From positions 2,852,001-2,916,000 of the forward strand of contig NZ_CP041360.1 of the NCBI RefSeq assembly GCF_006965485.1: DNA of 64,000 nt, written 5' to 3'. How positions within the stretch are numbered: position 1 is the first letter of the stretch; every line of letters begins with the position of its first letter. The translations under genes were made by a program, and so were the position numbers. Under the pieces are notes generated by a model. It had not been told where the DNA came from. It did no database searches and saw nothing but the letters and a program-made list of their open reading frames with translations. Positions 10,861 through 56,842 of this stretch are shown here, piece after piece. The stretch comes from Spirosoma sp. KCTC 42546. Lineage in GTDB: Bacteria; Bacteroidota; Bacteroidia; Cytophagales; Spirosomataceae.

Positions 10861-11685
10861 ATGAAAAACCTTTTGCTGCTGAAGACTTTTGCGATTGCGA
10901 TTTTACTTGCCTGCAAAAGCCCTGATGTGATCATACCGGATGCTAAAACGAATAGTGTCGTGGTGCCCAAACTTATCTGGTCTGACGAATTTAATGTGAA
11001 TGGTCTACCCGACTCAACAAAATGGGGGTATGATGTAGGGGGCAACGGTTGGGGGAATAATGAACTCGAATACTATACCGCGAAACGACTTGAAAATGCC
11101 CGTATTGAAAATGGGAAACTCATTATCGAAGCTCGAAAAGAAGCCTATGAGGGTAAAAATTATACATCGGCCCGTCTGCTGACCCGGGGTAAAGTGGAGT
11201 GGAAACATGGCCGGATTGAGGCCTTGGCTAAGTTGCCTGCCGGGCGCGGTACCTGGCCCGCTATTTGGATGCTGGGTTCTGATATCTCGACAGTAGGCTG
11301 GCCACGCTCCGGCGAAATCGATATTATGGAACACGTTGGTTTCGATGAAGGCGTTGTTCACGGAACCATCCATACCGAAGCTTATAACCACGCTAAGAAA
11401 ACGGAGAAAGGGAAAGCTATATCCATCAAGAATGTGTCAACCGCCTTTCATCTGTATGCCATAGAGTGGACGCCTGATCAGATCGATTTCTTTGTTGACG
11501 ATCAGAAATACTATACTGTACAGAAATCGGTGTTGGGGAGCGAGGTAGCGCAATGGCCTTTCGAGCAGCCATTTTACCTGATCTTAAACGTAGCCGTAGG
11601 TGGTAACTGGGGAGGCCAGAAAGGTGTTGACGAAAGCATCTGGCCGCAGCGTATGGAAGTAGATTATGTACGCGTGTATCAGTAG
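10861..11685 (+). CDS. Glycoside hydrolase family 16 lipoprotein (beta-glucanase-like)
   Basis: 274 aa from ATG 10861. Signal sequence ends in lipobox LLAC (C18), so it is a lipoprotein. The GH16 hallmark GEIDIMEHVG places the nucleophile at E152, helper D154 and acid/base E157. Further GH16 features are WSDEFN near the start, W-rich substrate strands (GRGTWPAIWMLG) and the closing MEVDYVRVYQ. Members cleave beta-1,3/1,4-glucans, agarose or related galactans; the exact sugar cannot be read. Its stop overlaps the convergent CHAT gene by 7 nt. Confidence 0.92.
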   Translation: MKNLLLLKTFAIAILLACKSPDVIIPDAKTNSVVVPKLIWSDEFNVNGLPDSTKWGYDVGGNGWGNNELEYYTAKRLENARIENGKLIIEARKEAYEGKNYTSARLLTRGKVEWKHGRIEALAKLPAGRGTWPAIWMLGSDISTVGWPRSGEIDIMEHVGFDEGVVHGTIHTEAYNHAKKTEKGKAISIKNVSTAFHLYAIEWTPDQIDFFVDDQKYYTVQKSVLGSEVAQWPFEQPFYLILNVAVGGNWGGQKGVDESIWPQRMEVDYVRVYQ

Positions 11686-14438
11686 GGTTGGGGCGGGCGT
11701 TTTCGCCGACGAAACCACCACCAGACACTGCCTAAGGCAATAATAATCAGGCCAATACTCCAGACACGCAGCTTCGGACTCGTTTGTAGTGGAGTAGTAT
11801 TGCCAACCAGTAGCAGCCCTGCCCACCGATTCGGCAACTGACCTGATAAATCAACGTTGGCTAAGTAATCGAGTTTGGCTTGCTGAAGGGCGAGGTCTTT
11901 AGGCAGTCCCTCGGCTAGTTTGGCGTAGAACCGTTCGGTCAGGTCATACGTGGCCTGGCTCTCTACATTCCATAGGGTAGTGAGTATGCTTGGAACGCCC
12001 AGTGAAGCAAAGCCACGAGCCAGACTGAATACGCCCTCGCCCCGCTGGTGGGCACCTACCCCGGTTTTACAGGCCGATAGCCCCACTAATTCAACAGGAA
12101 GTAATTCGGCGCTTGTCAATTCTGACAGCCGAAGTATCGAGTCGGTGAAGAACAGTGCTGGTTCAAGTCCGGTGCTATCAGCTTCGGCATGGGTGAAGAG
12201 CTGAATAACTTGATGATCACGAATCTGTTGCCCGAATGCCTGCCGGGTAGCATCATGCCCAGTAAGTAGGCTGGCCGACGAAAACCGATTGCCAATTCGG
12301 GTAAGGGCCGCATCGGACCCAGCCAGCGGTACCTGATTCAGGTTGGCCGAAAAATGAACGGGAGCCATTCCCAGAAACGACTGTGATCGGCCGAACCAAT
12401 GCCCTGACTGAGAGCGCATTTCCTTGAAGAGCTGATTTAGCGAATAAGCGTAACTAAAAGCATATTGGTGAATTAGAAAATCGGGTCGACTGGCCGATGT
12501 GCTTAAGGCCTCAAATGGTAGCAACACGCCATCAGGCGATACAATAACGCGCCCTGGCACGAGGGCTAACGGTTTTAGTAACTGCTGGTAAAGTTGGTTG
12601 GATACCGTTAGGTAATGCGTAAACTGTTTATTCTGTGCTTCGGAACTGGCATTTAGTGCCAGAAGTTCGCTGGCCTGTTTTGTGTAGACTGCTGCTGACA
12701 GGTGTATCAGTTTTGTGCTGCCTGGGGTGACCCCCAGTGCATACAAACTGCTGTCACCCAAGAAATAGGTTACCAAGGATGCCTTTTGATCCGCCAGATG
12801 CTGCTGTACCTGCGTGAGTGAAATTACATCATTGTTGTATTTATAGCGGTAATAGGCTGGATTGGTGTGCTCTAATTGATGGACAAACGTTTCCTGCGCT
12901 TCCTGTGTGCTATGCAGGCTATCAAGCGCTTTTGTATACGTACTTGTGCCGTGTTTTTCGCCGGATAATTTTGACTGCCAATCAGTTACACGCTGTCGAA
13001 GCCGCTGCTCTTCCGCTACCTGACTGGGGGTAAGCTGTCGGTTGGCACCCAGTTCGTTCAGTTTGTCGTTGAGCAGAACAGCCCGGCTTTTTTCGATGAA
13101 CCGAAATGCACTGGTGGCATCATGGAGCAGAAAACAGGTTTCAATCGCTGATTCATAAAGCCGATGTGTTTTGTCACGCCAGAATAGCTTTGATTGTTGA
13201 CCGGTATGTTCCCAACGCATAAACTCGATCATAGAATCGGCTAAGGCATAGGTTTTCTGGGCATTTCGGAGCCGGTCGGGATTATTGCCTGTGCTTTTGG
13301 CCCATTCGAGCCAGGTATCGGCTTTGTCCTGGACAAGAAGTAGTAGTGAATTTTTTTGGGCTACCTGGCGAATCTTACGTGCGTCAGGTAGCGAACCCAT
13401 AGTAGCACCTTTATAGTCAGGTAATAACGAATTGAATCCCTGCTGATAGAGTCGGTATGCCCGAGAATAGTCGCCAAGTTTTGCATATGTTAACCCTAGG
13501 CGATCGAGAAGGTTAATTTTGCTGAATTGACTTTTGTCGATAGTTAGCCCTTGCTGATAATAGTAAATAGCTTTTTGGTAATTTTTATCCTTAAAGTAGT
13601 GATGCCCAATGCTGTTTAAAAAGTCAGAAAGATTGGCATGCTGATTTTTTTTTGCAATCTGATAAGCTATTTCTAATTCTTTTAATTCGTTGGCAGGCTG
13701 GCCGAGGGCACGTAGAATAGTACCTAAGAGCCGATGCTGATTGGCCACCGAAAACCAAAGCTGGGGGTAATTTTGAAGCAAAGAAATTGCTTTTTCGACA
13801 GCGAGCTGTGCTTCCTGATAGCGATGTAATTCGCTCAATACCTGCGCTTTTTGCTCCCAGATTTTAGCTGAAGTTATTGTATCGTTGACTGACAGGGCCA
13901 AATTACCTCCTACATCAGCATGAAGCAATGCACGCTCAAAATCACCCTTGAGCAAATAGGCGTAGATTAGATATAAATGACTATTGGCTACAAAACGTTT
14001 AGCCTCCTTATTATCCTTGCCAAGCTTAATGGCGCGCTGGAGAAAATATATCGCTTTAGCGCTATTGTCATTGCTGCTATAGTAAACGCCGATCCGGTAA
14101 TAGACTTTGACTAGATCGCTCGCTTTGAGTGCCGTATAAGACTGCCTGTACAGGGGTAGAACCAAGTTGGTTGTGGCTATCGCCTGCGGATATTTCCCCT
14201 CATAAAATTCAGCTAGTCCTAGTTGAATAAGTGCGCTTGCATAGGTTGAGTCCGTTGCCGGATAGCATTTTTTCCAATTAATTAACCAATTGTGCAGAGC
14301 AGATTGTTGCTGATTAACGGGTTGCCTGGCTGATATTTTTTGTAATAACTCATAAAAAGAACTTCTTTCGGGGCATTGCGCCCTGCTGGATGCCCCGAAA
14401 GAAGTACACAAAATGAGTAACCAACCCCAGCGAATCAT
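11679..14438 (-). CDS. TPR-CHAT caspase-like protease with C-terminal membrane anchor
   Basis: 919 aa. N-terminal signal-like segment (MIRWGWLLILCTSFGASSRAQ), then roughly 400 residues of tetratricopeptide repeats (for example NSIGHHYFKDKNYQKAIYYY) and a coiled linker. The C-terminal CHAT domain has a catalytic dyad readable as H750 (QLFTHAEAD) and C790 (LSACKTGVG). A hydrophobic segment and RRRKR patch at the very end look like a membrane anchor with a short cytosolic tail. CHAT domains are caspase/separase-fold cysteine proteases. Last gene of the sigma/anti-sigma/subtilase/CHAT operon, 8 nt after the protease gene. TPRs probably sense a partner. The substrate is unknown; the anti-sigma protein is one candidate. 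Confidence 0.9.
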   Translation of the reverse strand: MIRWGWLLILCTSFGASSRAQCPERSSFYELLQKISARQPVNQQQSALHNWLINWKKCYPATDSTYASALIQLGLAEFYEGKYPQAIATTNLVLPLYRQSYTALKASDLVKVYYRIGVYYSSNDNSAKAIYFLQRAIKLGKDNKEAKRFVANSHLYLIYAYLLKGDFERALLHADVGGNLALSVNDTITSAKIWEQKAQVLSELHRYQEAQLAVEKAISLLQNYPQLWFSVANQHRLLGTILRALGQPANELKELEIAYQIAKKNQHANLSDFLNSIGHHYFKDKNYQKAIYYYQQGLTIDKSQFSKINLLDRLGLTYAKLGDYSRAYRLYQQGFNSLLPDYKGATMGSLPDARKIRQVAQKNSLLLLVQDKADTWLEWAKSTGNNPDRLRNAQKTYALADSMIEFMRWEHTGQQSKLFWRDKTHRLYESAIETCFLLHDATSAFRFIEKSRAVLLNDKLNELGANRQLTPSQVAEEQRLRQRVTDWQSKLSGEKHGTSTYTKALDSLHSTQEAQETFVHQLEHTNPAYYRYKYNNDVISLTQVQQHLADQKASLVTYFLGDSSLYALGVTPGSTKLIHLSAAVYTKQASELLALNASSEAQNKQFTHYLTVSNQLYQQLLKPLALVPGRVIVSPDGVLLPFEALSTSASRPDFLIHQYAFSYAYSLNQLFKEMRSQSGHWFGRSQSFLGMAPVHFSANLNQVPLAGSDAALTRIGNRFSSASLLTGHDATRQAFGQQIRDHQVIQLFTHAEADSTGLEPALFFTDSILRLSELTSAELLPVELVGLSACKTGVGAHQRGEGVFSLARGFASLGVPSILTTLWNVESQATYDLTERFYAKLAEGLPKDLALQQAKLDYLANVDLSGQLPNRWAGLLLVGNTTPLQTSPKLRVWSIGLIIIALGSVWWWFRRRKRPPQPY

Positions 14439-14446
14439 ATAAATTT

Positions 14447-16321
14447 CTAGGTGTAGTGAATGAGCCGACCTTCCTGAATTCCATCGTGCTCAATAGTACC
14501 AGTAAACGTTAGATCTGCCAGCGCCTGTGCTCTGGTAGCTGTCGGATTATTTTTTAGATAGGCAGCCAGTTTGGCCGAAAACAAGGCGGCAGTAAATGAT
14601 GTAGCATGCAAATCTGGGCTTTTAGTCGCATACTTAAAGACATGATCAAAAGGCCCTACTACACCTACATTGACAAAATCTTTTGAGTAATTATGAATTG
14701 CTTCATAAGAAGCTGGCACAATAGTAAAAGCACGCCATGGTATATTCAGCGTATTAAGAATGGCTGTGTGCTTTTGAGGGGTTAAGGGCCAAACTATATG
14801 TTGGCGTTTTTTCGATAATCGATGAATGATTTTATAGGATACCACATGAACGCTTGTGACCGTAATTACATTTAATCCCTTATCGTTACTGAAACAAGCT
14901 GGAAACAAGTTTAACTCTTGATTGTCCATTGGAACAAAACCAGGAGTAAAGTTTACAATTAGTTCCTTACCTCTGTTTCCCGCTGCTGCTATTGCCCAAA
15001 TACCCCTATTGTTAAGGCAAACAAATTTATTACGTAAAATAGAATAAGATTCCTGATGCAAAATCCCGGCGAAACTTAAATTGACTACCTTGATTGAAGG
15101 ACATACCTGGTGGCAATCTAATACATACGTAAGCCCACATAGTACATCAAATAGGGTTCCATTGCCTCCCTGGTTAAAAACCTTTACGGGTAATATTGCC
15201 GTAGTCGAATCAAGGTTATAAGTAGTTGGTGTATCCTCCTGATAAACAGTATACGTATTGCTTTTTTGATTAATAAGGGCAGAAATCGTGGTCCCATGAC
15301 GACCTTTCATCTCATGCTTGTCCTTATATACTTTATGGAGCAAATGATCATCGTAGGGAGATTTCTTAATATCGGTCTTGGTAATTGAAGTAAGAGGGGT
15401 ATACTCTGTAACGTCTACATAAGGACGGTCTTCTGCAACATTTGCCAGCTTAGATTCCTTACTTGCTCGCAAATACTCTGTCACAGAGCAGTAACCTTTT
15501 TTATACTGGTCGTTTCTTGGAACTTCAGCTAGTTTAAGTTTTCTGTTAGAACCAGTTAGAGGGGGATACTCATTGGTAACCGTTATGTTTAGTCTACCAT
15601 TGGCCCGTGAATGATATTCAAACGAGGTTTTTATGCCAGTATCAACCACTGCAATTACAGGATCTGAGCTTGTGCTAAATTGAATATCTCCTTCGGGAGA
15701 GCCAGCACTAAAATCAGTTGTCCGTACACTAAAACCATCTGGAGTTGTGTCTTCGAGCGCAGCAGTAACAGGAGGGCCAGGTTGGCTATAAGGTGGGTCT
15801 TGTATGACAAGATTATCCGTTTGTGATGATGAGACAATGTCTGAGTGGTCAAAACGGCCAAAAGCTGGATTCTGTTTTTTCCATTCGATCAACACCGTAA
15901 CAGTAGGTTCGCCATATTCATCATCAGGGTTATCAAATTCGCAAACGCGCAGTACACGCACATCAATGAGACGTGGAGCTTCTCCGTAAGGAAAAAAAGT
16001 TATCGGAGCGGTATTGCCTTCTGCCGAAAAGTCTGAGCTACTTTTCTTTACAATCAGAATTTTCTGATAAGGAATCGCATATACATTCTTAAATTTAGGA
16101 ATAGATTCCACTGGGGCCCATTGACCTAAGAGCTTCCTCACTTGAAGCCATTTTTCATCAGGAGTATCGGCGACGGAATCAGGTATTGGTTTGGTTTTTC
16201 CAAGAATGTCAATTGGGTCTTTTATTTTGATAGTAATCTTTGTTGGGTCTCCAATCGGTAAACCAGGAATAAGAGGTTTCTGAAATTCATTCAGAATACT
16301 GAAGGATAGATTTTTTGCCAT
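14447..16321 (-). CDS. Subtilisin-like serine protease (S8) without signal peptide
   Basis: 624 aa. Triad readable as D227 (AVVDTGI), H342 (GRHGTTIS) and S575 (ATSFTAAL), with oxyanion Asn in AAAGNRG, so it should be active. The Ser motif is ATS rather than the common GTS. About 220 N-terminal residues precede the catalytic domain and may be a propeptide or sensor. No signal peptide is visible, unusual for a subtilase and suggesting cytoplasmic action or non-classical export. By eye the gene is more AT-rich than its flanks. It sits 23 nt after the anti-sigma gene and 8 nt before the CHAT gene, implying one transcript and a joint proteolytic pathway. Confidence 0.88.
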   Translation of the reverse strand: MAKNLSFSILNEFQKPLIPGLPIGDPTKITIKIKDPIDILGKTKPIPDSVADTPDEKWLQVRKLLGQWAPVESIPKFKNVYAIPYQKILIVKKSSSDFSAEGNTAPITFFPYGEAPRLIDVRVLRVCEFDNPDDEYGEPTVTVLIEWKKQNPAFGRFDHSDIVSSSQTDNLVIQDPPYSQPGPPVTAALEDTTPDGFSVRTTDFSAGSPEGDIQFSTSSDPVIAVVDTGIKTSFEYHSRANGRLNITVTNEYPPLTGSNRKLKLAEVPRNDQYKKGYCSVTEYLRASKESKLANVAEDRPYVDVTEYTPLTSITKTDIKKSPYDDHLLHKVYKDKHEMKGRHGTTISALINQKSNTYTVYQEDTPTTYNLDSTTAILPVKVFNQGGNGTLFDVLCGLTYVLDCHQVCPSIKVVNLSFAGILHQESYSILRNKFVCLNNRGIWAIAAAGNRGKELIVNFTPGFVPMDNQELNLFPACFSNDKGLNVITVTSVHVVSYKIIHRLSKKRQHIVWPLTPQKHTAILNTLNIPWRAFTIVPASYEAIHNYSKDFVNVGVVGPFDHVFKYATKSPDLHATSFTAALFSAKLAAYLKNNPTATRAQALADLTFTGTIEHDGIQEGRLIHYT

Positions 16322-16344
16322 GGTGTAGAGTGGTTAACGTAGGT

Positions 16345-17061
16345 TTATAATTTTTCAATTAGCTCTTTAGCCCCCTTTCTGCCTTCCAGATTCTGATCGA
16401 TTACCGTTTGCAGCAATTGCCGGGCGGTTACTTTATCCGTTGGCTGGCTTCGTTTCAAATAGGCCAGCGCTTCGTAGAACAGGCCGGGGTTTGCCCGTAA
16501 TTCAGTACGTTGACCCAGACGATGGAACTGCACAATGGCTTGGTCGTAATTTCCTTGCCGGAGGGAAACAAGACCTGCTATTTTTAGGAAGTCGGAGTTG
16601 GTAGAGTCGCGCGTTAGCTTAGCTAGTACAATGGCTTCAGCAGCATCAAATTGGCCTTCATTGTACGCTTGCGAGGCTAGTTGCAGACTATCAGGCTGGC
16701 TACCCATCGTTACAGATAGGGTGGTCAGGTGATCCTGAATGTACTGGTTGGCCAGTTGTTTGGTAGAGGGTTGGGGCCAGAACAAAAAGAACCCCAGTAC
16801 TAACAGCACGCAGGCAGCTGCTGCATACGCAATAGGCATCCATACCCGGCGACTGGCCTGAGCTTCCTGTTGTCGCAAGGCAGCCCATTCTGTCTTTCGT
16901 TGATCCAGCGCTTCGGAGCGGGCCATCTGCTTGGCCTGCACATAAAATGAAACGGCTTCGGCCAGATCAGGATCGGCCACAATCTGCTGCTCGAAACGTG
17001 TTTTTTCGACATCTGGTAACTGACCCGCAAAATAGTTTTCAATCGTTTCCAGGTCGTTCAT
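16345..17061 (-). CDS. Single-TM anti-sigma-like protein with C-terminal TPR region
   Basis: 238 aa. Residues 1-50 (ENYFAGQLPDVEKTRFEQQI, DPDLAEAV) match the pattern of anti-sigma N-terminal regions. One TM helix spans about 74-95. The remainder (QAYNEGQFDAAEAIVLAKL, LRQGNYDQAIVQFHRLG) reads as TPR-like repeats on the far side of the membrane. The start codon overlaps the sigma-factor stop (ATGA, 17058-17061), a sign of translational coupling and 1:1 production. Role inferred: hold the sigma factor at the membrane until the outer TPR part or a protease releases it. No zinc-binding HxxxCxxC motif seen. Confidence 0.75.
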   Translation of the reverse strand: MNDLETIENYFAGQLPDVEKTRFEQQIVADPDLAEAVSFYVQAKQMARSEALDQRKTEWAALRQQEAQASRRVWMPIAYAAAACVLLVLGFFLFWPQPSTKQLANQYIQDHLTTLSVTMGSQPDSLQLASQAYNEGQFDAAEAIVLAKLTRDSTNSDFLKIAGLVSLRQGNYDQAIVQFHRLGQRTELRANPGLFYEALAYLKRSQPTDKVTARQLLQTVIDQNLEGRKGAKELIEKL

Positions 17062-17651
17062 TTTTTCGTCAGATTATAAGCTTCCCGCAACCGCTCCAGG
17101 CACCGAAGCCGACTGGTTTTGGCAACCGAAGATGTATTGTAACCCATTCGTTGCGCTATTTCTTCGTCGGAATAACCTTCTCCCCAGGCTAATAGCATTT
17201 GCTGACACTTATCGCCAAGATTACGTAACTGTTGATGAAGCCGCTCCTGCTCAGCCTGCTCCATCAACTGCTGGACAACCGATCGGGCCGGGTCGGGTAG
17301 TTGTAGGAATGTATCGTCAAGTGAAACAGCGTTGTGTACCTGCTGCCGATTAGTCGTTTTTTTTCGGATTAGGTCAACACATTTATTTGTAAAAATCTGA
17401 TAGAGATACGTTTTGAGCTCGGACTTGCCCTCAAAACGCCCATTGCCAATGTGCTCTATTACGGCTAATACTGCGTCCGCATAGGCTGTAGCGCAATCAT
17501 CCTCGGAGAGTTGGTGTTTTCGTACACCGCTACGAATAAAAGAAAGGTATTTTGTATAAAGTCGGTTTTCGGCGGAGGTACGGGTCAATCCACCCAGGCG
17601 TATCCCAGCGATAATGTCGGTATCCGGCAAGTGTCTGGAAAAAAGGCTCAT
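17058..17651 (-). CDS. ECF-type RNA polymerase sigma factor
   Basis: 197 aa. Sigma2 region about residues 27-98 (core SELKTYLYQIFTNKCVDLIRK) and sigma4 helix-turn-helix about 134-190 (GYSDEEIAQRMGYNTSSV). Length and two-domain layout are typical of ECF sigma factors. First gene of the operon and coupled by a 4-nt overlap to its probable anti-sigma. The promoter lies in the 145-nt gap shared with the divergent lipoprotein at 17797. Target promoters unknown; autoregulation is likely by analogy with other ECF loci. Confidence 0.88.
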   Translation of the reverse strand: MSLFSRHLPDTDIIAGIRLGGLTRTSAENRLYTKYLSFIRSGVRKHQLSEDDCATAYADAVLAVIEHIGNGRFEGKSELKTYLYQIFTNKCVDLIRKKTTNRQQVHNAVSLDDTFLQLPDPARSVVQQLMEQAEQERLHQQLRNLGDKCQQMLLAWGEGYSDEEIAQRMGYNTSSVAKTSRLRCLERLREAYNLTKK

Positions 17652-18742: not shown

Positions 18743-21700
18743 ATGGAAACGAATGTACTTTCTTACTCTTTCCAGAGCACAACGCTGGCTAATTCAAACG
18801 GTAGTATGGTGGCAGCAGCAACCAATTTACTACAGGTAGCAGGCCCAGGTAATTCACGTTTAGGTGATCGCTCCCAAGCTCTGCGGTTTGGGGTAGGATC
18901 CTGGGCTTCGGTAACGGTTTCCCCAGGGAGTGTCAATCCACAACAATTCTGTGTTCGTGTTTTGTTTAAAGTAACTGCTTCGGTTAGTGGGCGGCAGAAT
19001 CTGATTGAATCAACAGCGTTACCATTTGCTGTTTTTCTGGAGCCGGGACAAGCGCCAAATCCGTTTAACATTGTTGCGGCCATTCAAGATACAACTGTAG
19101 GCTGGGCATATGCCAGTACAGTTAATCGCCTTACGCTAGCACTTAATCAGTGGTATCTGGTTGACGTTATTTACGACCTGGATACACTGGCCGTGCTGGT
19201 TGACGGGACTGTATTGGCTGTAACCGCTTTCCCTAATGGTAATATAGCAGGTGGCAGTGGAGACCGGCTTTTTATAGGAACTTGGGTTGATGGGGTTCGC
19301 TATCAATTTCTGGGTGACATGGCTGGGTTAGAACTCTACTCGGGTATTCCGATGGCCTTGGAAGCGCTGCTTGATGCCAGACGAACTTCGCCCGAATGGT
19401 TCCTTACATTAAAATACAATGCAATTCGACCTCAGTTGAATATGGGAGGCCGTACTGCCGATTTCTATTACGATGCGGCCAGCCGGTGTGTAGTCCAACC
19501 CTTTGAGCATGGTCAGATTATGTTCAATTCGTTGGTAGGTGCAGCCTTTGACATTTATGGCGCTATTTATGAACTCTATAAAAACGACGCCAATTTACGC
19601 TATGCGCTAGGGCCAATAGTGAGTGATGAAATCAATGGAGCGCAGCCTGGAAGCCGAAAGAATTACTTTGAAAAAGGAGCTATTTATTGGTCGGCGGGTA
19701 CGGGAGCACAACCCGTGACCGGTCAATTGTATCTGGATTACGAAGTCCTGGGCGAAGGACGATCCGCTATCGGTTTGCCAATTCGCAAAGCAGAGTTCAT
19801 TCGTGATGGGGTACAGCAAACATTTCAGTCCGGTAAGATGTATGCCAAAGATGGGCTATCTAATGCCTTTGAAGTTCACGGAGATATTCTTGCCAAATTT
19901 GAAGCAACGGGTGGTATAGAACGGTGGGGCTACCCGGTTTCTCATGAATCGGATGTTCGGCAGGGAAATTCCGTGATCGGTAAATTCAGCAGTTTTGAGA
20001 ACTGCACAATTTACTGGAGTCCGGCTACAGGGGCACACGTTGTTTATGGTGATATTCGGGAGACCTACCGTAATCAACTCCAGGGGCCATTGGGGCAGTT
20101 GGGGTTTCCAATTTCATCAGAAGAAGATATTCCTGGTGTGGAGGGCCCAGCCCGGTACAACACCTTTGAGAACGGTTGTATTACCTGGTTTAATGGGGAA
20201 ATTCACATCTGCTATCCGTTTAAAATTGCGCTGGGGAGCCTCGATACGAAAGAAGAAGATCGGGATTGGGCACCAATTGTAGGTGATTTGGATGGTCAAA
20301 ATGATATTTATGCGCAACTCAAGATCAGTACGAATGGACGTACCGTTTTTGAGCGAAAGATTCCGGAAGGAACCACACATTACCCGAGCGCCAATCGGTT
20401 CGATATGAATTACACGATCCCATACAGGATCGTACCAAACGACCCAAATGCGCAGCTAAAATTTGAGACAGTTATCTGGGAAACCGATTCTGGAAACATC
20501 TTTGGAGGAGGAAACACGCAGCTTGGGACGCTAAGCAAAAATCTCTCAATCAGTAACGCATGGGGATTACGGGAAAGTAGAGACGGGCTTTTTTCGGCTG
20601 GCGCTATTGGGCCCTGGGTAAATGACCTCCGTTGGTCGATTAAGCCGGAGCAACTTCCTAATGCCCCCCGTGACTTTTTTGGGGTATCAAATACAGCAAC
20701 ACCAACGGTTGATTCGCATGAGTATGCGGAAGCGTTTTCAGACGTAGATCCCGATTTTGAGATTGGGCTGGATCTGGGTTTTATTGACAATGGTCTTAAG
20801 GCGCTCTATTATGAGTTATTTGTAAAAGGGGCTGCCAGCAAGGGAAATTGTTTTGGTATGTCTCTGGAAGCAATCTATGCTCAGAAAGGCAACAGCCGCC
20901 TTGGCGCTCCACTTAAACGGTTTACAAACTGGAACTCCGTTGAGAACGACTTCAATGTAAAGCACATTTATCAATGTGGGGCCGACCAGATTTACTGGTT
21001 TGTAGGCCAGTTCTTATCCGGTAGAACACACGATCCTGTTTCGGTATTTAATCAGTCGTGGGATTGTTTTAACCGGGGTATGGACCCGGTGATCTCATTG
21101 GCCCAAAATTATGACTTTACGGGAGCACCTCATTGTATTCTACCCATTGAGTGGCGCCGACCGGCTACTGGGAATTGGGAAATCCGTTGTTTTGACCCCA
21201 ATTTTCAGAATTTCATCCAAACGATTTACATTGATCCGGCGGCTAATACGTTCCGATATTCGGCGGGGAATACGTATACAGGTGGGGCATGGAACGGTGG
21301 TCGACTGCACTATACGCCATTTAGTGTATTGAACCACCGGACCCGAACCCCTATGTCTGATCTGTTCTCACTTTTTAAGGGAGCACTTCTAGTTTTTGTT
21401 GGCGATGCCGCTACTACCGTATCTCTTACAGATGAATCAGGTAAGGATATAAATGGCGTCAATGATACATCTGGGCAGATAAAATCACTTAAAAATAAGT
21501 TTGTGTCGTATAAAGGCACCTATGGCTCCGGTGCCTTCCAGGGTGAGTTGTTTCTGCGGCAAATGGAGTCATCATCGGTTCGAAGATTGTTGCCTGCTGT
21601 TGCCAGCGAACAGGTCCTGACCAAGGTTGCGACTTTTTCCCGGAAAGATCTGTCTATACTGTCAAAACATGCTTCACTGGCGTTAAATGCGCCACTTAGC

Positions 21701-22270
21701 CAGGGCATTGGTACGATTGGATCTGTCGTAAACCCTCTTATAACTAGCCGGAATTTTACCCATAATTTCATTGGAAATAAAAATGGAAACCTGGCTTATT
21801 ACCTGAAACAGCCCTTTATGGGCCTGCAATTGAGTAGTGCTATTTCGACAGGTGAGATCGGAAAAATTAACACCAGAGATTTTGGAACAATTGATAATCG
21901 GGTTCTTCTGGAAACCCAGCGGAATAAGCAGGTTATGCTGGAAGCATACAACCAATTAGGTGCCAAAGGTGATGTGCTACGTGTTTCAGTCACAGGCATT
22001 GCTGCTACCACAAATGCACCACTCGAAGTACATCTCGAACCAGGTTTACGACAGATTGACTTCATGGCAGGCGGTGACCCTGTTGAGGCTAAAATTACGG
22101 TTGAATCGATCAGTAACGGACAGAAAAGGCAAACTGCTTTCTCGTCCCGAATCGAAGGCCCCAGCCGGATTATTTTGACGGATGCAATGAATTCCGATCA
22201 GATAAAAATCGGAAAAATCGATTCGTTAATGGGTGGACTACATGATGCAAGAATCATACGGAATCACTAA
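18743..22270 (+). CDS. LamG-like / LGFP-repeat / papain-like cysteine protease multidomain protein
   Basis: 1175 aa. Residues 1-205 look like a concanavalin/LamG domain (LNQWYLVDVIYDLDTLAVLVDG). About 240-490 hold four LGFP-type repeats (LRYALGPIVSDE, GRSAIGLPI, IERWGYPVSHE, LGQLGFPISSEED). About 495-640 is a beta-rich domain. A papain-like catalytic set follows: C703 (GNCFGMSLEAIY), H797 (GAPHCILP) and D818/N820 (CFDPNF). The last 350 residues are beta-rich and unrecognised. No signal peptide. LGFP modules are known from wall- or surface-associated proteins; the protease assignment rests on motif order only. Divergent from and close to the CHAT/subtilase operon. Confidence 0.75.
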   Translation: METNVLSYSFQSTTLANSNGSMVAAATNLLQVAGPGNSRLGDRSQALRFGVGSWASVTVSPGSVNPQQFCVRVLFKVTASVSGRQNLIESTALPFAVFLEPGQAPNPFNIVAAIQDTTVGWAYASTVNRLTLALNQWYLVDVIYDLDTLAVLVDGTVLAVTAFPNGNIAGGSGDRLFIGTWVDGVRYQFLGDMAGLELYSGIPMALEALLDARRTSPEWFLTLKYNAIRPQLNMGGRTADFYYDAASRCVVQPFEHGQIMFNSLVGAAFDIYGAIYELYKNDANLRYALGPIVSDEINGAQPGSRKNYFEKGAIYWSAGTGAQPVTGQLYLDYEVLGEGRSAIGLPIRKAEFIRDGVQQTFQSGKMYAKDGLSNAFEVHGDILAKFEATGGIERWGYPVSHESDVRQGNSVIGKFSSFENCTIYWSPATGAHVVYGDIRETYRNQLQGPLGQLGFPISSEEDIPGVEGPARYNTFENGCITWFNGEIHICYPFKIALGSLDTKEEDRDWAPIVGDLDGQNDIYAQLKISTNGRTVFERKIPEGTTHYPSANRFDMNYTIPYRIVPNDPNAQLKFETVIWETDSGNIFGGGNTQLGTLSKNLSISNAWGLRESRDGLFSAGAIGPWVNDLRWSIKPEQLPNAPRDFFGVSNTATPTVDSHEYAEAFSDVDPDFEIGLDLGFIDNGLKALYYELFVKGAASKGNCFGMSLEAIYAQKGNSRLGAPLKRFTNWNSVENDFNVKHIYQCGADQIYWFVGQFLSGRTHDPVSVFNQSWDCFNRGMDPVISLAQNYDFTGAPHCILPIEWRRPATGNWEIRCFDPNFQNFIQTIYIDPAANTFRYSAGNTYTGGAWNGGRLHYTPFSVLNHRTRTPMSDLFSLFKGALLVFVGDAATTVSLTDESGKDINGVNDTSGQIKSLKNKFVSYKGTYGSGAFQGELFLRQMESSSVRRLLPAVASEQVLTKVATFSRKDLSILSKHASLALNAPLSQGIGTIGSVVNPLITSRNFTHNFIGNKNGNLAYYLKQPFMGLQLSSAISTGEIGKINTRDFGTIDNRVLLETQRNKQVMLEAYNQLGAKGDVLRVSVTGIAATTNAPLEVHLEPGLRQIDFMAGGDPVEAKITVESISNGQKRQTAFSSRIEGPSRIILTDAMNSDQIKIGKIDSLMGGLHDARIIRNH

Positions 22271-54313: not shown

Positions 54314-56842
54314 ATGGAAGCAAAATTCTCAAACCGCGTAAAGGAAGTCATCACGCTGAGTCGGGAAGAAGCCTTACGCTTAGGCCACGATTATATCGGC
54401 ACAGAACACCTCTTGCTGGGTATGATTCGTGAGGGTGAGGGTGTAGCGGTGGGCTTACTGAAGAAACTCGGTATCTCACTCGACGAACTCCGGGTCACAA
54501 TTGAACAGGCCACGAAAGGAACAGCCACCAACAACGTGAAAAATCTAGCGAATATTCCTCTGACCCGTCAGTCGGAAAAGACGCTGAAAATCACCTATTT
54601 GGAAGCTAAGATTTTCAAAAGCCCGCTCATTGGAACGGAACACCTGTTACTGTCGATTCTGCGTGATGAAGACAATGTCGCCACCCAGATTCTCAATAAA
54701 TTCAATATTAACTACGAAGTCATTAAGGAGATGCTCGAATATCAATCTTCGGGAACCCGCCCGGTGATGGGTCCCGAAACCGACGATGACGACAACGACC
54801 GTGGCATGTTTGGCGGAAGCAGTTCCGGTTCAGGCAAAGATCCAAAAGGTACCGAGAAATCACGGACACCTGTACTGGATAACTTTGGCCGAGACCTGAC
54901 CAAACTTGCCGAAGTTGGCAAACTCGATCCCATTGTTGGTCGCGAAAAAGAAATTGAACGGGTAGCTCAGATTCTGAGCCGCCGGAAGAAAAACAATCCA
55001 ATCCTGATTGGTGAGCCAGGGGTTGGTAAAACGGCTATCGCCGAAGGACTGGCTCTGCGCATTGTGCAGAAGAAAGTTTCGCGGGTGCTATTCGGTAAGC
55101 GTGTTGTTACACTTGACCTTGCATCGCTCGTGGCAGGTACAAAGTACCGCGGACAGTTTGAAGAGCGGATGAAGGCCGTGATGAACGAGCTTGAAAAATC
55201 GCCGGAGGTTATTCTGTTCATTGATGAGTTGCACACGATAGTTGGAGCAGGTGGTGCGTCGGGTTCACTCGATGCGTCGAACATGTTCAAACCGGCATTG
55301 GCGCGGGGCGACATTCAATGTATCGGTGCTACCACACTTGATGAATATCGTCAGTATATCGAGAAGGATGGAGCCCTGGCTCGTCGTTTCCAGATGGTAA
55401 TGGTGGATGCCACATCGATTGACGAAACCATCGAAATTCTGAATAACATCAAGGATAAATACGAAGATCACCACCATGTTGACTACACGAAAGAAGCTAT
55501 CGAGGCTGCTGTGAAGTTGTCAGAACGGTATATCTCGGATCGATTCCTTCCTGATAAAGCTATTGACGTAATGGACGAAGTGGGTGCTCGTGTACACATT
55601 TCAAACATTACGGTTCCTGAAGATATTCTGAGACTCGAAGAGCAGATCGAGAACATCAAGAAGGAGAAAAATCAGGTTGTTAAGAGCCAGAAATACGAAG
55701 AAGCCGCTCAGCTTCGCGATAAGGAAAAACGCCTGATCGACCAGCTTGAGCGCGCGAAACAACTTTGGGAGGAAGACACCAAGAAACGTCGCTATAAGGT
55801 TACCGAAGAAAACGTGGCTGAAGTAGTAGCCATGATGACCGGTATTCCAGTGACGAGCGTATCGAACGATGAAGGCAAGAAACTTGTCAACATGGGCGAT
55901 GAACTGAAAGGCCGTGTAATTGGTCAGCAGTCGGCCATTGACAAACTAGTGAAAGCTATTCAGCGGACGCGTGTTGGTTTAAAAGATCCTAAGAAACCTA
56001 TCGGTTCGTTCATTTTCCTTGGCCCGACGGGTGTAGGTAAAACAGAACTTGCCAAAGTGCTGGCTACTTACCTGTTCGACAAAGACGATGCGCTGGTTCG
56101 TATCGATATGTCGGAATACATGGAGAAATTCAGCGTTAGCCGTTTGGTTGGGGCACCTCCAGGTTACGTGGGTTATGAAGAAGGTGGTCAGTTGACCGAA
56201 AAAATTCGTCGGAAGCCTTACAGTGTCGTGCTGTTGGATGAAATCGAAAAAGCCCACCCGGATGTGTTCAACATCCTGTTGCAGGTGCTTGACGATGGTA
56301 TCCTGACCGACGGTCTGGGTCGCCGGGTTGATTTCCGGAACACAATCATCATCATGACCTCCAACATCGGGGTTCGTGACCTGAAAGATTTTGGTGCGGG
56401 TATCGGTTTCGCAACCAAGAAGAGCGCGGAAACACAGGATGATTTGATGAAGAGCACGATTCAAAGTGCACTGCGTAAAGCGTTCTCGCCTGAGTTCCTG
56501 AACCGTTTGGACGATGTGATTGTGTTTAACTCGCTCTTGCGCGAAGACATCCACAAAATCATTGACCTGATGCTGGGTAAACTGCTGGGCCGTGTTACCA
56601 ACCTGGGTTATACTGTTGAACTGACAGAGAAGGCGAAAGACTTCCTGGCCGAGAAAGGGTATGATCCGCAGTACGGTGCCCGTCCGTTGAGTCGCGCTAT
56701 CCAGCGTTACCTTGAAGACCCCGTTGCTGAAGAAATCCTAAAAGGTGAACTGAAAGACGGCGACGTCATTCTGGCCGACTACAGTGGTGAAGGCGAAACG
56801 CTGACCATTACGGTAAAGAAGCCCGAAGCAGTGGTTGAGTAA
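54314..56842 (+). CDS. clpC: ClpC-type AAA+ unfoldase of the Clp protease
   Basis: 842 aa. Two Clp-N repeats (1-150), first AAA+ module with Walker A GEPGVGKT (K239) and [14 protein letters not shown]-type coiled middle ([16 protein letters not shown]), and second AAA+ module with GPTGVGKT (K576) and [13 protein letters not shown]. Hexameric ATP-driven unfoldase feeding ClpP, with roles in protein quality control. No clpP in the window. Ends 6 nt before the 64-bp palindrome at 56849-56912. Confidence 0.97.

Follow-up and report, generated by a model that had tools for sequence, protein, structure and literature searches.

ECF sigma factor pathways rank among the main systems of envelope signalling, and what feeds into many of them is unknown. 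Regulated intramembrane proteolysis (RIP) of the RseA/DegS/RseP type resembles the operon described here in that the operon encodes a candidate one-TM anti-sigma factor with a periplasmic domain, in a genome that contains a site-2 protease; it differs in that the site-1 candidate is not DegS but the operon's own caspase-like TPR-CHAT protein. A TPR-CHAT protease with a His/Cys dyad is also part of the type III-E CRISPR Craspase (Cas7-11, the TPR-CHAT protein Csx29, Csx30 and CASP-sigma). Unlike for Craspase, no CRISPR effector was seen in the window (the whole stretch of DNA analyzed, 64,000 nucleotides from Spirosoma sp. KCTC 42546); the CHAT protein of the present system is predicted to be exported and membrane-anchored, its inhibitor candidate is a one-TM protein, and it has in addition a slot gene and a cassette that is exchangeable.

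In the DdvS/DdvA system of Myxococcus xanthus an ECF sigma factor is paired with a transmembrane anti-sigma factor and, judged by alignment and by the part of the source that was available, the TPR-CHAT-like part seems to lie within the anti-sigma factor itself, whereas here TPR-CHAT is a separate protein with an intact dyad. According to the available excerpt of their description (PMC8195603), the EACC2-caspase systems comprise a caspase-type peptidase, a variable sensory part, and ECF sigma and TPR (DUF1822) genes; the likeness lies in an ECF sigma gene that adjoins the gene of a caspase-type peptidase whose sensory part varies, but the Pfam scan of the four operon proteins contained no DUF1822, and here the variation lies in the TPR region and in a slot gene of its own. 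DGR-diversified putative antigen sensors, as excerpted (PMC10907252), likewise combine a fixed effector with a highly variable sensor; the variation described below, in contrast, arises by block replacement.

Results

Operon organization and gene products

At positions 11679–17651 of the window, on the minus strand, the genes SIG, ASF, S8 and CHAT are packed with a 4-nt overlap followed by gaps of 23 and 8 nt. An earlier note on this DNA had described four packed genes with spacings of −4, 23 and 8 nt, and the open reading frames, their order and their spacings all agree with it. The features are as follows.

17058..17651, minus strand: SIG, ECF sigma factor, 197 aa (TIGR02937, Sigma70_r2)
16345..17061, minus strand: ASF, anti-sigma-like protein, 238 aa, with N-terminal domain, one TM segment and TPR-like domain (NF052375 under cut-off, hydropathy, alignment)
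16771..16836, minus strand: ASF transmembrane segment, about residues 76–97 (alignment, hydropathy)
14447..16321, minus strand: S8, leaderless subtilase with prodomain-like region, 624 aa (PF00082, invariant triad, AF2 model)
15803..16093, minus strand: S8 prodomain-like region, residues about 77–173 (model aligns through the prodomain and catalytic domain of PCSK9 and pro-subtilisins)
14450..15667, minus strand: S8 catalytic domain, residues 219–624 (PF00082, model)
11679..14438, minus strand: TPR-CHAT protein, 919 aa (PF12770, AF2 model)
14379..14438, minus strand: predicted CHAT signal peptide, about residues 1–20 (N-terminal hydrophobic stretch, the window's own called by eye)
13419..14375, minus strand: CHAT TPR superhelix, residues 22–340
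11799..12605, minus strand: CHAT caspase-like domain, residues 612–880, with H750/C790 (PF12770, alignment)
11700..11771, minus strand: predicted CHAT C-terminal TM anchor, followed by RRRKR (model helix 890–913, hydropathy)
13314..16344, minus strand: exchangeable cassette, S8 plus the TPR half of CHAT (limits inferred from relatives)

SIG matches TIGR02937 with 73.6 bits, over the cut-off, and Pfam Sigma70_r2 with 28.4 over 24, and is 51–72% identical to 19 aligned relatives. Against the type III-E RpoE-like sigma model NF041236 it scores 41.4 bits, below the cut-off of 100, and a PDB sequence search with the SIG alignment gave no match at 1e-3. SIG adjoins a one-TM protein with an N-terminal domain before the TM segment, which is the layout of an ECF sigma factor and its membrane anti-sigma factor. 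This protein, ASF, carries TPR-like repeats beyond the TM, and hydropathy places an internal TM in 66 of 73 ASF proteins. Its resemblance to anti-sigma factors is weak (31.4 bits to NF052375, whose cut-off is 100), and no His or Cys occurs among the invariant or nearly invariant columns of its alignment, so a zinc-type motif is lacking. The anti-sigma label is given because of the sub-cut-off NF052375 match and the gene position, and ASF is a candidate for the anti-sigma factor of SIG.

S8 matches PF00082 with 34.2 bits, and D227, H342, N449 and S575 are invariant in all 59 aligned sequences. In its AlphaFold2 model (pLDDT 79.1), residues 77–173 align within prodomain-containing chains, a similarity seen in the model only, with no Pfam I9 match. 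The CHAT protein matches PF12770 with 143.8 bits, and its model (pLDDT 89.9) consists of a TPR superhelix (22–340), a helical linker and the CHAT domain. H750 and C790 are invariant in 72 of 72 aligned proteins and are also present in L164 and L167–L169. A PDB sequence search with the CHAT half returned a single chance-like match; with the CHAT alignment, the matches listed were TPR proteins. Domain matches, TM prediction and invariant catalytic residues thus bear out the identities proposed in the earlier note: an ECF sigma factor, a one-TM anti-sigma-like TPR protein, a subtilase with full triad and no signal peptide (the window's S8 being of the leaderless kind), and a TPR-CHAT protease with an H750/C790 dyad.

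Tandem CHAT genes lie within one module in L094, L098 and L100; in L109 and L118 (Aquimarina) CHAT is present as two adjacent ORFs, reflecting a split gene or a frameshift. The genome of the window contains six matches to the CHAT domain, two of them about 4 kb apart (C1:5533618-5538728).

Predicted topology of the CHAT protein

Hydropathy analysis of 91 CHAT proteins, a few of them fragments, gave an N-terminal hydrophobic stretch in 84, a C-terminal TM in 80, and both in 75; all 80 proteins with the C-terminal TM have a net positive tail after it. The N-terminus of the window's CHAT scores 1.7, with the threshold at 1.9, and its signal peptide was called by eye. The predicted signal peptide and C-terminal TM anchor together place the TPR and protease parts of CHAT in the periplasm, facing the TPR domain of ASF, and make CHAT a plausible site-1 protease for RIP.

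Gene order and genomic setting

The S8 search covered 79 genomes, the window's own included, and found matches in 21; 20 loci from other genomes were read over 18 kb. The four genes are collinear in 18 of these 20, which indicates that the arrangement is more than chance; in L031, SIG-ASF is divergent from S8-CHAT, and L044 ends at a contig edge. A CHAT scan of GTDB contigs provided 79 loci from the best 80 of 159 matches, 11 of the 79 sharing genomes (by contig) with loci from other locus sets. Among these best matches, SIG-ASF-S8-CHAT is found in 43 of 79 loci, a count that includes six in which SIG scores only 1e-9 to 1e-17, and L113 and four Larkinella loci with intervening extra genes. 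Another nine (L088–L092, L094, L098, L108 and L123) have SIG-ASF-CHAT without S8, and the remaining loci have missing parts, contig-edge ends or SIG-ASF otherwise arranged; in L070 and L075, neither SIG nor ASF adjoins CHAT. Loci labelled Spirosomataceae, Cytophagaceae, Flectobacillaceae, Cyclobacteriaceae and Chitinophagaceae have the full order, and Saprospiraceae, Flavobacteriaceae and Marinifilaceae loci a looser arrangement. Conservation of the gene order in Bacteroidota, which the earlier note had put forward as a check, therefore holds across several families. Within the genus, 19 of 36 genomes have the module as judged by S8, and 6 of the 17 others as judged by the sigma alignment at 1e-40, giving 25 of 36. 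ASF matches of at least 100 bits, counted from the matches listed, occur in 36 of 390 genomes drawn evenly from the order.

In some members of the genus the module is flanked by an M50 site-2 protease gene on one side and an exonuclease (oligoribonuclease-like) gene on the other. Among 27 loci read, 10 have M50 directly beside SIG or separated from it by one gene (L029, L030, L032, L037, L039, L040, L042, L164, L165 and L166), the call resting on a Pfam scan for L029 and on N-termini for the other nine. Of 10 genomes that lack the module, 9 likewise have the M50 gene, and in 6 of the 10 the M50 and exonuclease genes are convergent neighbours 0.1–2.4 kb apart. M50 was thus rejected as a module component, since it occurs without the module. 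That the flanking genes are neighbours in module-less genomes indicates that the whole module has been gained or lost at that site, and that the nearness of M50 is owed to the site. In the window the module occupies another site, beside a GH16 gene, with the M50 gene of the same genome elsewhere.

Several other arrangements were observed. In the Larkinella loci L059, L060, L061 and L063, two ASF genes with a minus-strand gene between them lie upstream of S8-CHAT. Some Spirosoma loci have a 7TMR-DISM histidine kinase gene just upstream of SIG (10963–12336 in L042, and alike in L041 and L030). A longer CHAT gene, with weak ASF and SIG relatives divergent beside it, is found in L110, L111, L112 and L125 (Aquimarina, Saprospiraceae, Flavobacteriaceae). 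Near the operon in the window, on the other strand, positions 18743–22270 encode a protein of 1175 aa that has LGFP repeats and a laminin-G-like domain.

PADLOC was used to evaluate the defence context. Among the four operon proteins, the best match of CHAT is BovA (15.2 bits), SIG scores 14.5 and 14 against CARF models, and S8 and ASF have none. The 34 further window proteins searched (from about 170 aa upwards, with nearly all non-overlapped ORFs of at least 200 aa among them) include no cas protein and no Cas7-11 (gRAMP); the only matched neighbour, at 54314–56842, is a ClpB/ClpC-like AAA+ protein by Pfam. The defence-island setting considered in the earlier note is therefore not borne out by PADLOC within the window.

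Block replacement of S8 and the TPR half of CHAT

We compared all pairs in an unselected table of 46 loci that have the complete set of four genes and a clear motif at which CHAT is split into a TPR half (CHAT_N) and a protease half (CHAT_C); 15 of 61 S8 loci were not used, and the table holds 1035 pairs. SIG is at least 85% identical in 20 of these: 10 pairs keep S8 and CHAT_N, 10 change both, and none is mixed. The 10 changed pairs share 29–35% identity in S8 and 25–34% in CHAT_N, with 68–89% in ASF and 61–87% in CHAT_C. The 10 kept pairs share 50–93% in S8, and no pair falls between 35 and 50%. Selecting instead for CHAT_C identity of at least 70% gives 11 pairs that keep, 13 that change both, and 0 of 24 mixed; at looser cut-offs, mixed pairs number 4 of 117 (at least 60%) and 8 of 337 (at least 50%). 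The thresholds for keep or change (S8 40%, CHAT_N 38%) were set post hoc, and the pairs are not independent.

Eight locus pairs were compared at the DNA level, the replaced ones having been picked after the trees were seen. Homology is continuous in L049/L083 and L055/L056, and interrupted in six pairs: Runella limosa–R. defluvii, Dyadobacter LHD-138–D. diqingensis, Dyadobacter CY356–3J3, Fibrisoma montanum–F. limi, S. luteum–S. spitsbergense and S. endophyticum–S. fluviale. In the interrupted pairs, homology stops within a stretch that reaches from 77 nt upstream of the ASF stop codon to 81 nt downstream of it (at the codon or within 7 nt of it in the Runella and both Dyadobacter pairs) and resumes at CHAT codons 364–405, patchily in the Fibrisoma and S. 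endophyticum pairs. The flanking genes of five of these pairs, all but S. endophyticum–S. fluviale, are 64–100% identical, and at least 85% identical in 34 of 39 comparisons. At the protein level, CHAT identity in four pairs (30-residue bins, window numbering) is 10–43% up to residue 360 and 40–58% in the next bin, with a step near residue 375, after which it is 66–100% (last bin 28–75%) in three pairs and 23–100% in Fibrisoma; in a distant pair compared alongside, the N half of CHAT is also lower than the C half. Identities of SIG/ASF/S8/CHAT_N/CHAT_C are 96/89/29/27/87% for the Runella pair, 95/79/32/29/61% for the Fibrisoma pair and 90/81/32/25/83% for Dyadobacter frigoris–3J3. S8 and the TPR half of CHAT are thus replaced together, as a block.

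The partial rank correlations follow the same division. S8 correlates with CHAT_N (0.39, 0/1000 locus permutations) and not with CHAT_C (0.00, 506/1000), and its values with ASF and SIG are 0.085 (22/1000) and −0.07; CHAT_C correlates with ASF (0.38) and SIG (0.52; 0/1000 each), and CHAT_N with CHAT_C at 0.05 (199/1000). The values are much alike without near-duplicates and inside Spirosomaceae. At 45% mean identity, the 46 loci form 28 S8 and 29 CHAT_N classes, as against 3 classes each of SIG and CHAT_C. Four groups of the SIG+ASF tree (support 99–100), namely Dyadobacter (5), the window with L028 and L047, two Runella, and four Runella-like, are rejected by S8 with AU p values of 3e-8, 2e-7, 3e-35 and 1e-74; a fifth group (one Dyadobacter and two Runella) is recovered as a clade by S8, and SIG+ASF rejects it (p 2e-4). 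The groups were named once both trees, of a quick kind, had been seen. The bimodal S8 identities and the AU tests largely reject S8 as merely a fast-evolving orthologue. S8 does drift faster than the backbone where it is not replaced (4 of 10 kept pairs have S8 at 50–61% with SIG at 86–92%), and over all 1035 pairs the median identity is 27% for CHAT_N and 47% for CHAT_C.

As for the origin of the cassettes, S8 identity exceeds that of both ASF and CHAT_C by more than 5 points in only 1 of 1035 pairs, and that pair is no transfer case; the donors are mostly unseen. S8 of L044 (a Spirosoma MAG) is 73% identical to that of L065 (Fibrisoma montanum), with CHAT_N at 58% and CHAT_C at 59%, which hints at S8 transfer between genera. 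GC contents in the window are 48% (SIG), 50% (ASF), 40% (S8), 43% (CHAT_N) and 51% (CHAT_C). Among 47 loci, 41 have a lower value in CHAT_N than in CHAT_C, and 37 have a lower one in S8 than in both ASF and CHAT_C; amino-acid usage may add to the low cassette GC.

Slot proteins

The slot between ASF and CHAT holds proteins of several kinds: leaderless subtilases, as in the window, exported subtilases, and small non-proteases. Leaderless S8 proteins, the window's included, make up 36 of 61, and 25 of 61 have a signal peptide, lipobox or TM; the calls are from hydropathy corrected by eye (L107 added, L032 removed), with some starts unsure. The leader state requires three changes on the S8 tree versus nine on the CHAT tree. 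One genome (G004, locus L169) is 75%, 66% and 72% identical to the window in SIG, ASF and CHAT_C, and has a lipoprotein-like S8 (24%) with CHAT_N at 29%. Two others (G019 and G021, loci L167 and L168) encode a 155–156 aa protein with no S8 match in place of S8; a bare S8 prodomain was considered for it and not established (hhalign probability 28% and 15%). Small ORFs fill the ASF-CHAT gap in eight loci without S8 (L088–L092, L094, L098 and L108, four of them named Chitinophagaceae). One TM peptide is alike across L088, L092, L094 and L098, another is found in L089 and L090, and L091 and L108 have secreted or lipoprotein-like ORFs; these come from a mechanical ORF scan, with the two TM peptides supported by their likeness between loci.

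S8-related genes also occur in other surroundings. In L170 (G026:C8, 360–7182), two leaderless S8-like genes (448–449 aa) come after a second, divergent relative of SIG; a diverged CHAT gene lies on the strand opposite to these, and there is no ASF match. In L068, L075, L076 and L078 (Arcicella and kin), S8-CHAT pairs lack adjoining SIG and ASF, and S8 has an N-terminal TM.

Discussion

We tentatively propose that the operon encodes a membrane-spanning proteolytic switch, in which a constant sigma/anti-sigma/caspase output is coupled to an exchangeable ligand–receptor input, a reading we hold at somewhat less than even confidence. SIG would be held by the cytoplasmic part of ASF, which would cross the inner membrane. 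CHAT, exported and anchored via its C-terminal TM, would cut ASF in the periplasm as a caspase-like site-1 protease, after which a general site-2 protease, for which the genomic M50 protease is a candidate, and cytoplasmic proteases would free SIG. The slot protein, here an S8 zymogen, and the CHAT TPR superhelix would form a matched pair: the TPR would read the slot protein, or what the slot protein has bound or cut, and set CHAT activity, and cassettes would be swapped as a block with the rest of the operon staying. In such a switch CHAT may cut ASF and S8 may touch the TPR, and the signal could perhaps be phages, competitors or non-kin.

Several observations weigh against the switch. A leaderless S8 should be cytoplasmic and the TPR periplasmic, and the predicted topology leaves a direct contact unexplained. 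S8 and CHAT_N are adjacent in the DNA, and their co-replacement could reflect linkage; the CHAT_C correlations with ASF (0.38) and SIG (0.52) are also expected from vertical descent. The weak S8-ASF correlation (0.085, 22/1000), the drift of S8 and the lower CHAT_N medians over all pairs, the CHAT loci without SIG and ASF (L070, L075), the anti-sigma call below curated cut-offs and the absence of any donor seen count against it as well. A variant we consider possible, with about a third of our belief, is a polymorphic recognition locus, in which the constant output would read exchangeable allele pairs of slot protein and TPR receptor, and a cell would respond to a foreign or tampered own slot protein meeting its TPR; the exchangeable allele pairs would then liken it to allorecognition and antigen-receptor loci.

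The slot gene may instead encode the effector, with TPR-CHAT recognizing its own slot protein and cleaving it into an active form, S8 perhaps being cut in the low-confidence linker that joins its prodomain to the catalytic domain; sigma and anti-sigma would then only control operon expression, and the TPR, as the substrate-docking part, would change with the slot protein. The subtilase-with-prodomain model of S8, the differences in kind among slot proteins (small TM proteins, the 155–156 aa non-protease) and the covariation of S8 with the TPR and not with CHAT_C are consistent with this, but by prediction the membrane separates a leaderless S8 from the periplasmic CHAT, and no sign of slot-protein toxicity was seen; we regard it as rather unlikely. 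Another reading is an envelope-stress sigma system of the usual sort, in which exchange or drift of the S8/TPR part has no role in recognition; it would suit a chromosomal gene set that occurs, with ordinary neighbours, in 25 of the 36 genomes from this genus, and S8 drift in unreplaced pairs too. The high flank identity of five pairs (64–100%), however, indicates that such replacement is not general, and together with block edges near gene and domain borders and the count of 0 mixed pairs in 20 it renders that explanation improbable. The model of the earlier note was that CHAT or S8 cuts the anti-sigma factor and switches on a phage-defence regulon, as in type III-E CRISPR but without CRISPR. 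The logical parts are indeed those of Craspase, and variable sensors with fixed proteases have been proposed as conflict systems in the excerpts available (PMC10907252, PMC8195603). PADLOC, however, gave no defence neighbours (one AAA+ chaperone-like match) and marginal scores for the operon proteins (14–15.2 bits), and the match of SIG to the III-E sigma model (41.4) stays below the cut-off of 100; we consider a phage-defence regulon quite improbable. That note's proteolytic signalling module is supported in part, with CHAT predicted to be periplasmic and facing ASF; nothing was found linking the operon to phage defence. The CHAT signal peptide, its TM anchor and the mosaicism of the operon are additions to that account.

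A search of titles and abstracts of openly licensed papers (topics CHAT, ECF, anti-sigma, subtilase, Csx29 and DdvA) found no description of the operon or its mosaicism, and the operon was not found in the available portions of PMC8103513 and PMC7159879. The parts and the logic are known separately; the search yielded neither the operon nor an exported CHAT nor, most notably, a slot-plus-TPR cassette that is replaced as one. A caspase-like protease seems to be wired to an ECF sigma pathway outside CRISPR. To our knowledge, no other ECF pathway has a cassette-exchangeable input, and this would be the first if the reading is true. Natural variants of the cassette exist, and if the S8-TPR pairing is real, it would represent a bacterial receptor reprogrammed in nature by cassette and open a direct route to what the variable receptors sense, be it phage, competitor or kin.
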